This document shows positions 20,770 to 23,228 of a DNA stretch of 64,000 nt, one piece after another. The DNA lies in NCBI GenBank assembly GCA_024643325.1, contig JAHEND010000006.1, positions 1-64,000 on the forward strand. Reading direction: 5' to 3'. Position 1 is the first letter of the stretch, and each line of letters begins with the position of its first letter. The stretch is from Sediminicola sp. Its GTDB lineage: Bacteria > Bacteroidota > Bacteroidia > Flavobacteriales > Flavobacteriaceae. The position numbers and the translations under genes are program-made. The notes beneath the pieces are model-generated. The model ran no database searches. It was given only the letters and a program-made list of their open reading frames with translations, and was not told the origin of the DNA.

Positions 20770-21399
20770 TTAATTTTTGTCAGTAGGTGCACTACTGGTA
20801 TTATTTTTCTTTAAAAACAACTGCTCTTTAATACTTTTTAGACGTTCAAAGGCCTTGGTGTTAAGGGGCTTCTTTTTTATTTTATGCTCATAAAGCATAC
20901 CTGTGCACAAACACATTTTTTGGTCTGTCCTTGTGAGTACATCAAAATTCTTACAAGTTTGGCAGCCTTTCCAAAATTCAGGGTCGGTGGTGAGTTCAGA
21001 GAAAGTTACTGGCTTATAGCCCAATTCATAATTGATTTTCATCACCGCAAGACCTGTGGTAATTCCAAAAATTTTGGCTTGAGGGAATTTTTCTAAGGAT
21101 AGGGCTAATACCGCCTTTTTGATTTTTTTTGCCAAGCCTTGATTTCTATAGTCAGGGTGTACAATAAGACCTGAATTGGCCACAAATTTCTCATGCCCCC
21201 AGACCTCTATGTAGCAAAAACCGGCAAAGATTTCTCCGTCTAACGCAATAATGGCGTTGCCGTTCTGGAGTTTTCTCTGAATATATTCGGGACTGCGCTT
21301 GGCAATTCCAGTGCCTCGAACCAATGCAGAAGCTGCAATAGTCTCGCAAATAATTGGCGCGTACTTAAAATGAGACGCGTTGGCCATTATAATTTTCAT
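20770..21399 (-). CDS. GNAT-family acyltransferase heading the arginine operon (candidate N-acylglutamate synthase)
   Basis: This is a 209-residue protein. The GNAT core has VANSGLIVHPDYRNQGLAKKIKKAVL, with RNQGLA as the acyl-CoA pyrophosphate loop. The C-terminal part carries four cysteines spaced CxxC-x13-CxC (146, 149, 163, 165), a possible metal site. No other first-step enzyme (argA or argJ) is present in the operon, and the gene is first, right behind the Arg-codon leader and 4 bases before argG. I infer that it acylates glutamate, probably with succinyl-CoA given ArgF' Ala90. This is not proven by sequence. It could instead be a regulatory or unrelated acetyltransferase. Confidence 0.72.
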   Translation of the reverse strand: MKIIMANASHFKYAPIICETIAASALVRGTGIAKRSPEYIQRKLQNGNAIIALDGEIFAGFCYIEVWGHEKFVANSGLIVHPDYRNQGLAKKIKKAVLALSLEKFPQAKIFGITTGLAVMKINYELGYKPVTFSELTTDPEFWKGCQTCKNFDVLTRTDQKMCLCTGMLYEHKIKKKPLNTKAFERLKSIKEQLFLKKNNTSSAPTDKN

Positions 21400-21445
21400 G
21401 GGCAGTTAATAAAAATAAACAAAAGGATAAATGATTACGCTAGGG

Positions 21446-21467
21446 GGAATTGGACACACCTAATTCC
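21446..21467 (-). promoter_or_regulatory. Hairpin in the arginine operon leader
   Basis: The minus-strand RNA can form GGAAUU-A-GG-UGUGU-CC-AAUUCC, a stem of 6 plus 2 pairs with one bulge. It lies 16 bases after the stop of the putative Arg leader peptide and about 45 bases before the GNAT start codon. No immediate U-run follows, although a T-rich stretch begins about 15 bases later. It could be part of an attenuation or pause structure; its role is inferred from position only. Confidence 0.35.
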
Positions 21468-21483
21468 AAAAAGAAATACACCC

Positions 21484-21519
21484 TTACGGGCGGCGGCGCC
21501 TAGGGGCGGGGACTACCAT
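21484..21519 (-). CDS. Putative arginine-operon leader peptide (11 residues)
   Basis: An ATG at 21519-21517 opens an 11-codon frame reading MVVPAPRRRRP, then TAA. The four consecutive Arg codons (AGG, CGC, CGC, CGC) are immediately followed by Pro and stop, 84 bases upstream of the first gene of an arginine operon. This is what an attenuation leader peptide looks like: ribosome stalling when charged tRNA-Arg is scarce would change folding downstream. The tract is strikingly GC-rich for this genome. The same frame is open further upstream, so a longer version from GTG at 21609 (41 residues) is possible. No homology search was done. Confidence 0.6.
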   Translation of the reverse strand: MVVPAPRRRRP

Positions 21520-21614
21520 ATTCGAAGCTGCCTCATTGAAAGAAGCGGTATAACCAACACTCAAAGAGGTCGTTGGATTCGAATTAGGATATGTAGTATT
21601 GTTAATCACTGAAC

Positions 21615-21622
21615 CAAATATA
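21615..21622 (-). promoter_or_regulatory. Candidate -7 promoter box for the arginine operon
   Basis: On the minus strand TATATTTG is an exact TAnnTTTG match, placed about 95 bases before the Arg-rich leader peptide ATG and about 215 bases before the GNAT start. Transcription from here would include the leader peptide and hairpin. A -33 TTTG at the usual spacing is not seen. Confidence 0.5.
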
Positions 21623-21671: not shown

Positions 21672-23228
21672 CTAAACATTTTTAACAGATTCGCTTTTCA
21701 AGCGTTTTAATTTAACAATTTCATAGAAAAGGAATCCAAATACTAATACGTATTCTATGGCAATAACCCATAAATTTTCTTTAAACTTTGGATCTGAGTA
21801 GGTTATATAACTTAAAAAGACCGTTCCACTCCAAAGATACGCATACTTTAATCTGGTGAAAATGGCGAGAGCGACTCCAAAGGAAAGGTACCAAGGATGT
21901 ACCGTGGTTGCGACCAATAAATGCCCTGTAAACATGAATAGCATAGAGTTTATGGAAATTTCCAGTACCCTTGGAAATCCCTTGAAATAAGGATGTACGA
22001 GATTTTTTAATCTTACACTAATCGCACGGTGGGGGGTATTTTGTAAATGGACCATCTGTCTCCATTGCCAGAAAAATACAAGCAAGGCTGTCCCAATAAT
22101 TAAAAAGGGCAGGATTTTTCCATATGTTAAAATGCTTCTGTAGGCCGAGTGTCCGTTTTCCATGGCAATGGATTTGACTAAATTGTAAATGGAGGCATTA
22201 AATTCAAAGTTATTAAACCACAAGCCTATGGTTTCCAAATAAGAACTCCAAAATCCATCTTCTAAAAGAGGCCCCCAGAAAATCCCTGCACATAACCCTA
22301 TCCAGCCGCCTAAAATAATCGTTTTTCTAATCCCCAAAGGCAATAAAAGAAACGGAAGGAACAAGATGGGAATTAGTTTGGTCATGATAGAGAGCGCTAT
22401 GAGACATCCGCTTAGAAAAAGCCATTTTTTTTGGTAATGAGTCTGCTTGGTCTTATACGGACCTGTAGCAGCTACTCCCTGAATTTGCTCCAACTGATAT
22501 TTAATGTGATTTTGTAGCTTTATCAGAGCCCATATGCCTCCTAGAAAAAAGGCAATCATCACCCCTTCTAGGTGAAGATTGCCGCTGAGTTCTACAATCA
22601 CTAAAGGATTTAAAAAGTAATAAAAAACCTTCCATTGTGGCTGTCCTAGAAAGGCTAATATGCGGCTACTCAACCCTACAATAAATAGGTCTGCCAATAG
22701 AACAATTACTTTGAAAACCAAAATGGATTTTGGGATGGAATCTCCGCCCACATAGGCGGCTAATCCATAGATATACTGACTAATAGGCGGGTAATTGGAA
22801 TAGTGCTTTTGACTCAATTCTCCCATTTTTTCAAAGAGATAGGCGGCATTGGGTACCAATTGGTCTACGGTTACAATAATGTCTTTTGGGAGGTGAATGT
22901 AGGGGTTTATTTGATGGATGAGTAAATGCCCATCCCATATATATCTATAAAAATCTTGAGATAGTTCAGGTGTTCCAGCAAACAGTAATATACGGTATAT
23001 AACCCCTGCCACTAAAAGCATGCGAAAAATAAGTGTGTTTCCTTTAGAGGTAAAATGTGCTGTTGTGATGTTTAATACTTGGTACGATAAGGCAAACAAT
23101 GCAGTGGCTAAACCAATGAGTTTTACCGATTCTGTCCGTTCTAAATCATAGCCAAAACTCCAGTAAAACAATCCTATGATTAATAGGAGTGATAGAGGGT
23201 ATAGATAAAGCTTTAAAAAAGAGTACAT
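21672..23228 (-). CDS. Polytopic membrane mannosyltransferase-like protein (GT-C fold, GT87/MptB-like)
   Basis: This 518-residue protein has about a dozen hydrophobic helices. An early loop carries FYRYIWDGHLLIHQINPYIHLP, the acidic loop typical of GT-C enzymes that use polyprenyl-phosphate sugars. SNYPPISQYIYGLAAY and HLEGVMIAFFLGG resemble the alpha-1,6-mannosyltransferase (MptA/MptB) and GT87 families. It probably transfers a sugar from a polyprenyl-phosphate donor on the outer face of the membrane. It follows two GT2 genes with 2- and 1-base gaps, one of which could make that donor. The acceptor is unknown. Confidence 0.72.
   Translation of the reverse strand: MYSFLKLYLYPLSLLLIIGLFYWSFGYDLERTESVKLIGLATALFALSYQVLNITTAHFTSKGNTLIFRMLLVAGVIYRILLFAGTPELSQDFYRYIWDGHLLIHQINPYIHLPKDIIVTVDQLVPNAAYLFEKMGELSQKHYSNYPPISQYIYGLAAYVGGDSIPKSILVFKVIVLLADLFIVGLSSRILAFLGQPQWKVFYYFLNPLVIVELSGNLHLEGVMIAFFLGGIWALIKLQNHIKYQLEQIQGVAATGPYKTKQTHYQKKWLFLSGCLIALSIMTKLIPILFLPFLLLPLGIRKTIILGGWIGLCAGIFWGPLLEDGFWSSYLETIGLWFNNFEFNASIYNLVKSIAMENGHSAYRSILTYGKILPFLIIGTALLVFFWQWRQMVHLQNTPHRAISVRLKNLVHPYFKGFPRVLEISINSMLFMFTGHLLVATTVHPWYLSFGVALAIFTRLKYAYLWSGTVFLSYITYSDPKFKENLWVIAIEYVLVFGFLFYEIVKLKRLKSESVKNV

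Follow-up and report, generated by a model that had tools for sequence, protein, structure and literature searches.

Closest described systems

A short upstream frame with consecutive arginine codons is known from Salmonella, where slow reading of orf34 at low arginine alters the fate of the downstream speF RNA and the position of the stop codon matters (passages of PMC6386406). A comparable frame, followed by two hairpins (S1 and P2), lies in front of the arginine operon of Sediminicola sp. (assembly GCA_024643325.1, contig JAHEND010000006.1; the window is the whole stretch analysed, 64,000 nucleotides, nt). The two systems differ in several respects. In the same passages, orf34 is a gammaproteobacterial element before an ornithine decarboxylase gene, whose expression high arginine lowers via RNase G, with Rho. 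Its two arginine codons lie in a conserved peptide body, whereas here mostly three to five stand near the very end of the frame and one of them forms part of a hairpin arm. The HIRRT-HIM core of orf34/speFL (DUF2618, PF10940) was absent by eye from the leader peptides viewed, and the first downstream gene encodes a GNAT acetyltransferase, followed by argG where the order was read.

The trp- and his-type attenuators, treated in passages of PMC1183508, share with this locus a promoter, a short frame, codons for the product before the stop and hairpins before the operon. In contrast to them, the locus showed no recurrent antiterminator/terminator pair, forms a hairpin from the control codons with the stop in its loop, and carries P2 with its conserved loop. 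The uORFC-8-2 frame before cysS, as described in part of PMC8632094, resembles it in its tandem matching codons, short frame, conserved stems and purely comparative basis, but concerns cysteine, alphaproteobacteria and an aminoacyl-tRNA synthetase gene.

In 2010, passages of PMC2965389 stated that, ermC apart, leader peptides had been demonstrated only in Proteobacteria and Actinobacteria until its own case from Firmicutes. The initial annotation of the locus held that such leaders are little described in Bacteroidota. A literature search (titles and abstract starts, with limited coverage of subscription journals) gave no leader peptide of an arginine biosynthesis operon in that phylum. Passages of PMC9723704 do report, for Flavobacterium psychrophilum, strong clues that amino-acid operons are preceded by attenuating leader peptides, which lessens the novelty. 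That species is a flavobacterium and the operons are biosynthetic; the passages name no arginine operon or element, and overlap with the present element is possible. The kind of system is thus already known; what appears to be new is its arginine form, with a single-hairpin layout and P2.

A conserved frame ending in arginine codons

The element is likely to be an arginine-specific ribosome-mediated leader peptide that controls the arginine operon, with a stalled ribosome holding S1 open so that the operon stays on. Along the minus strand, a GT87-like gene (21672-23228) comes first, then a gap of 272 nt, the GNAT gene (21399-20770) and the arginine genes. The gap holds, in order, a box, a 41-codon frame, S1 and P2:

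21615..21622, minus strand: TAnnTTTG promoter box TATATTTG, recognized by sequence and by box-before-start conservation in distinct copies
21484..21609, minus strand: 41-codon leader frame with a GTG start, plus TAA, VINNTTYPNSNPTTSLSVGYTASFNEAASNMVVPAPRRRRP; GTG at the same place in L003-L006
21484-21519, minus strand: 11-codon form, the end of the 41-codon leader frame
21490..21501, minus strand: arginine codon run AGG CGC CGC CGC, recognized by sequence and conserved by codon position
21479..21492, minus strand: hairpin S1, CGCCC-GUAA-GGGUG, -7.2 kcal/mol, with covariation
21468..21478, minus strand: U-rich linker UAUUUCUUUUU after S1, terminator-like together with S1
21446..21467, minus strand: hairpin P2, GGAAUU-A-GG-UGUGU-CC-AAUUCC, with a near-invariant loop, -6.1 kcal/mol, with covariation

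Positions 21519-21484 of the minus strand read ATG GTA GTC CCC GCC CCT AGG CGC CGC CGC CCG TAA; the stop codon occupies 21486-21484, the peptide would end in P-R-R-R-R-P, and 84 nt lead to the GNAT ATG (21399). The initial annotation had described this 11-codon frame as a probable arginine attenuator set in a GC-rich tract, with a TAnnTTTG box upstream and a GGAAUU/AAUUCC hairpin downstream. All of these features were recovered: the GC content is 0.53 across 21450-21549 against 0.386 in the window, and the box and the hairpin lie at 21622-21615 and 21467-21446. The sequence comparisons below support its leader-attenuator reading. Its start codon fared less well. The leader most likely starts at GTG 21609, 5 nt past the box, giving the 41-residue form that had been mentioned only as possible, whereas the ATG of the 11-codon form has an equivalent in L003 only (in L004 and L005 an ATG occurs at another nearby position, by eye). 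In all eight other copies viewed from the same genus a start codon follows right after the box in the same frame, either GTG (L003-L006) or ATG (L012-L014 and L016), the leaders of the latter being shorter.

For comparisons between genera, 142 sources were collected, of which 136 met a regular expression for the P2 loop; the six lacking it were dropped, and 129 distinct copies remained. A TA box with at least five of its six fixed bases lies 3-11 nt ahead of an in-frame start in 102 of them, most commonly at 7 nt (57 copies), compared with 1/129 and 9/129 for the same test in the two other frames. Arginine occupies codons -2, -3, -4 and -5 in 116, 103, 91 and 53 copies, respectively. Outside the S1 arm (codons -3 to -12) there are on average 3.05 arginine codons in frame, compared with 0.57 and 0.46 when the frame is shifted; choosing the frame among nearby stops by arginine count somewhat favours the in-frame figure. 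Arginine is retained across changes between CGC, CGT, AGG and AGA, and the stops are TAA (114), TAG (14) and TGA (1), indicating that the reading frame and not merely the sequence is under conservation. Four in-frame runs of at least four arginine codons occur in the six frames of the 64 kb, the leader run being one. The initial annotation had considered four tandem arginine codons unlikely by chance; conservation of the codons and the frame in relatives settles the point and rules out a chance run. Two marks of ribosome-mediated leaders were thus found, namely a cluster of codons for the product of the operon and a short frame upstream of it that is predicted to be translated from the conservation of frame, stop and start-after-box. 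Sensing by the arginine codons appears well supported by the comparisons. A CACATA-like motif was also seen to recur at about codons 5-8 of the frame in many loci.

Almost all leader arginine codons are CGC or CGT, which seem to be read by one isoacceptor, whereas among the 128 arginine codons of 12 window genes AGA/AGG account for 90 and CGC/CGT for 27. According to the theory in passages of PMC1183508, low codon usage alone leaves a tRNA charged unless that tRNA is scarce, so that the codon choice is no support by itself. In passages of PMC6386406, rare and frequent arginine codons performed alike in orf34.

Occurrence in related genomes

A search for the GNAT protein was positive in 57 of 99 genomes, including that of the window. 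Among 30 loci (own copy included), a simple regular expression detects the P2 loop in 29, and ahead of it a frame holds two to five arginine codons in its last eight. A covariance model, R1, was built from an alignment of 28 of these 29 loci (L013 was left out), and its consensus structure shows changes on both sides in 6 of 12 pairs. R1 matches 247 of 397 genomes of the family (E <= 0.01; the place of the match was unchecked per genome), with a single match in all but four, and the extra matches in those four are weak (E 0.002-0.008). The best 80 of 585 GNAT relatives, selected by GNAT similarity and not by the element, served as named loci; some of their genomes were also in the R1 training set (L094, L101, L133 and L141). 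The R1 element lies upstream of the GNAT gene in 80/80 named loci, with genera including Zobellia, Maribacter, Arenibacter, Muricauda, Robiginitalea, Salinimicrobium and Gillisia; one additional weak match, in L079 (E 0.051), is on the opposite strand. Class-wide, 9 of 395 genomes match (E <= 1e-4), all in the window's own family; this marks the reach of the model, because R1 was built from that family. The initial annotation had named conservation of the arginine run and its frame in relatives, and compensatory changes in the hairpin, as ways to check its proposal, and both were found. Searching the window against Rfam 15 gave only a tRNA, and 10 loci gave no match up to E 0.5.

Hairpins S1 and P2

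S1, which the initial annotation had missed, is made of the arginine codons themselves. Its 5' arm combines the last arginine codon with CC from the Pro codon, its 3' arm is the GGGUG after the stop, and its loop holds the stop codon, as it does in 110 of the 129 copies. P2 reads GGAAUU-AGGUGUGUCC-AAUUCC in the window (21467-21446). Covariation was assessed in 88 distinct rows from 89 hand-picked loci, in an alignment that was fitted to the model and leans towards structure: 97.9% of the S1 and P2 cells are paired, both-side changes occur in 104 cells against 18.6 in shuffles, and the covariation score reaches 0.327, whereas sliding the partners gives 0.091 at most. Most of this covariation comes from P2. 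S1 is nearly invariant and becomes CGCAC/GUGCG by compensation in L017, L127, L132 and L142.

Folding energies relative to shuffles gave mean z-scores of -1.78 for P2, -1.50 for S1 and -0.93 for P0, a possible further hairpin within the frame. The flanks have no structure signal (mean z +0.10 in 129 copies, and +0.32 after P2 in the 50 copies long enough), and a fold of the whole leader RNA gave no strong signal (z -1.03). When 85 free folds were averaged, mean pairing above 0.15 was confined to S1 (up to 0.42) and P2 (about 0.6); weaker pairings of 0.08-0.14 were P0 (at a variable place), -98/-49 and +59/+84. No recurrent alternative partner of GGGUG or P2, as expected of a mutually exclusive antiterminator/terminator, appeared in 85 and 81 main-type sequences; these are thermodynamic folds, which would miss partners at variable distance, and lineages with a second leader may differ.

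The frame and its arginine codons, S1 and P2 thus recur together in front of the arginine operon. Two other possible hairpins lie within the leader frame:

21530..21546, minus strand: possible hairpin P0 (GCUUC/GAGGC), weak in this genus
21554..21576, minus strand: possible hairpin (CCAAC/GUUGG), -5.7 kcal/mol, equalled in 10 of 200 shuffles

P0 stems of at least 5 bp are present in 98 of 129 copies, compared with 45% of shuffles, with the 3' end 24-36 nt ahead of the stop in 79 of the 98. Compensating arms occur, such as CAAGGU/ACCUUG and CAAGGC/GCCUUG (L066, L068). By eye, the counterpart of the CCAAC/GUUGG hairpin in L005 is CCAACAG/CUGUUGG.

The P2 loop, AGGUG(A/U/C)GUCC, is near-invariant across many genera. 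With at most three mismatches, the P2 pattern was found once each in 24 of 60 genomes, 21 of the 24 matches being at the R1 element, against 5 of 60 genomes for a control read backwards. The remaining matches, in G023, G049 and contig C99 of G058, are off the element or not known to be at it. L030 and L127 have lost the loop but retain a hairpin, and in L185 and L188 the loop is decayed.

Several other explanations of these parts were rejected. The single match to the P2 pattern in the window's own genome rules out a repeat or mobile element. Nor can P2 be explained as a DNA operator, given its G-U pairs and bulged A. Pairing between its loop and the CGCC of the arginine run was rejected since, by eye, the base before CGCC does not track the variable loop base. 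Base pairing of AGGUGAGUCCA with the 16S 3' end would need one bulged base, and position 6 varies. A second frame starting at P2 (ATGGAAATAGG...) is not kept in L006 and L017 and has no common end, by eye.

Proposed mechanism

No ArgR (PF01316) was detected in any of 99 genomes, among them that of the window; the PF01316 control was positive in 9 of 14 genomes, among them Bacteroides ihuae. In the ArgR regulon arginine likewise controls its own biosynthesis, but through a DNA-binding repressor. With conserved arginine codons before the arginine operon and no ArgR found, the leader is best interpreted as sensing charged tRNA-Arg and is a plausible substitute for ArgR. A transcript from the promoter at 21622-21615 would have its ribosome start near the 5' end, at GTG 21609. 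With ample charged tRNA-Arg, the ribosome should pass the arginine codons, terminate within S1 and depart, allowing S1 to fold and the operon to be turned down. When charged tRNA-Arg is scarce, it should wait on the arginine codons; because the last of these lies in the 5' arm of S1, the waiting ribosome would keep S1 open and the arginine genes would be expressed. Leader translation, stalling and the closed S1 as the off state are what we infer from this layout. The output of a closed S1 could be an intrinsic terminator, which the adjoining UAUUUCUUUUU makes plausible in the window, or could involve Rho or mRNA decay, which have to be considered because the U content after S1 is inconsistent across copies. 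P0 might, speculatively, act as a pause hairpin.

A terminator scan of the region gave two sites against 0.6 expected, S1 with UAUUUCUUUUU being one and the other lying on the plus strand. The U content after S1 averages 4.95 of 10, with a range of 1-8 of 10 in 111 copies, and S1 is therefore not a standard terminator everywhere. This variation is one of several points that weigh against the proposed mechanism. P2 is followed by no U-tract in the window, where the sequence after it is CCCUAGCGUAAUC, or in most copies viewed, and P2 in the window is no ordinary terminator. When the arginine codons were masked as by a stalled ribosome in 81 sequences, the freed GGGUG found no partner above a mean of 0.07. 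The stop codon lies outside the S1 loop in 19 of 129 copies, and promoter box plus start were not found in 27 of 129, largely loci outside the best-matching group and several of them with a second leader upstream. The P2 loop is conserved beyond what the model explains. The low-usage CGC/CGT choice would lend no support unless the matching tRNA is scarce, and the choice of frame by arginine count belongs here as well. Lastly, the sequences are related, so that the counts are not independent.

A more specific version of the mechanism is tentative and rather less likely to hold than to fail. In it, the element is a new kind of attenuator, a single hairpin, with the sensing codons as arm and the stop as loop, replaces the antiterminator/terminator pair, P2 is bound by a factor, and the element serves as the main arginine switch of Flavobacteriaceae after the loss of ArgR. 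If the proposed mechanism is correct, it would explain the control of arginine synthesis in a large bacterial family with no detectable ArgR. Arginine, too, would then be an amino acid whose biosynthesis operon carries its own codon-reading leader, here in a phylum whose translation initiation is unusual. The clear anatomy and about one copy per genome make the element directly testable with reporter constructs.

Alternative explanations

Among the alternatives, Rho- or nuclease-based control as in Salmonella speF is the most probable, though it too is rather unlikely. A stalled ribosome would then shield or refold the leader RNA against Rho or an RNase, with P2 as a binding or processing site. 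The lack of a general U-tract and the unstructured stretch after P2 are consistent with such control, and the two consecutive arginine codons of orf34 in passages of PMC6386406 provide a precedent.

A classical trp-type attenuator, in which stalling at the arginine codons favours an antiterminator over a P2 terminator hairpin, is improbable. The order of a leader with product codons and then hairpins ahead of the operon is that of the classical type. Moreover, a U-run follows P2 in a few copies, such as GGUUCUUUUUUU in L028, and by eye a hairpin at the corresponding place in family f2 is followed by UUAUUU (L157). However, masking of the arginine codons leaves the pairing of P2 unchanged (0.60 vs. 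0.61 in the 81 sequences), the partners of GGGUG all stay at or below a mean of 0.07, free folds contain only S1 and P2 above 0.15, and P2 in the window is trailed by a sequence without a U-tract.

About equally improbable is an RNA that is the sensor itself, either as an arginine aptamer or as a protein site in the P2 loop, the arginine codons being a second input or a by-product of a GC-rich stem. The near-invariant loop and the concentration of pattern matches at the element would suit such a sensor. In contrast, the loop is lost or decayed in the four loci named above, arginine codons are also kept outside the stem (codons -3 to -5), Rfam gave no match, 3 of 24 pattern matches lie elsewhere and the backwards control still matched in 5 of 60 genomes.

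Arrest of the ribosome by the sequence of the leader peptide (RRRP-stop), with arginine as ligand, is very improbable: Pro at codon -1 in 109 of 129 copies and a VRPF-PRRRP-like end common to many named loci would fit it, but the CC in the S1 stem dictates the Pro, changes in the stem give ends such as RRT, FVRA or LGV, and the peptide body varies between genera. Termination after Pro is slow, and the fungal arginine attenuator peptide and TnaC are the comparators for sequence-dependent arrest.

The operon and its distance from the leader

The genes behind the leader are as follows:

20770..21399, minus strand: GNAT acetyltransferase, the first operon gene, Pfam PF00583/PF13508
12198..20792, minus strand: after GNAT, in order, argG, argC, proC, argD, N-acetylornithine carbamoyltransferase, argB, an ArgE/DapE-like gene and argH

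NCBIfam cut-offs were passed by argC, proC, argB and argH; the matches of argG, argD, the carbamoyltransferase and argE/dapE are below cut-off. The spacing of the element to the GNAT start is 83-98 nt in 76 of the 80 named loci and 69-82 nt in L127, L132, L133 and L136. Fixed spacing as a sign of translational coupling was rejected, as the spacing is much longer in L177, L182, L183 and L186. In these four, about 150-230 nt separate P2 from GNAT, vs. the usual 45-60 or so. In L183 and L186 this interval contains, by eye, a long stem and then U-rich sequence, possibly another terminator.

Diverged and tandem leaders

The same four loci (genomes G111, G226, G165 and G360) have a near-invariant stretch of about 50 nt with GTTAACGAAAGGGGCTNNNGCCGACGATTTAGAG directly before the leader ATG. 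A single copy of this stretch is present in each of four genomes from three genera, and Rfam gave no match; it may be an arginine-rich in-frame extension of the leader or a structured RNA. By eye, more diverged arginine-rich leaders are present in other families of the order (L157, L158, L162), and no such leader was seen in the stretches viewed of the weak matches L189-L192. In another family of the order (L153, L154, L155) a different conserved leader, such as MKQVNIYTPSERPVLTIGIGRFSPLDRFRREPNRQ, lies upstream of GNAT, with scattered arginine codons and then a GC-rich hairpin, by eye.

A second arginine-rich frame, for example KNLKNKIRCSTPGLPVRNRRRF in L027, lies further upstream in 24 loci from other genera that were selected by eye among 29 scanned (L030 and L180 are one genome). 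A run of at least four Us follows 23-75 nt past this frame, with none in some loci under a stricter definition. Pairing of the first 12 codons of the second frame with the stretch before the U-run gave a mean z of -1.03 against shuffles. The z-score is above 0 in 6 of the 24 (L017, at 0.1, and L023, L029, L030, L145 and L180, at 0.6 or more), and few loci are convincing singly. Where the pairing forms, its arm often contains an arginine codon. This moderate evidence suggests that the tandem leaders follow the same masking principle with a clearer terminator.
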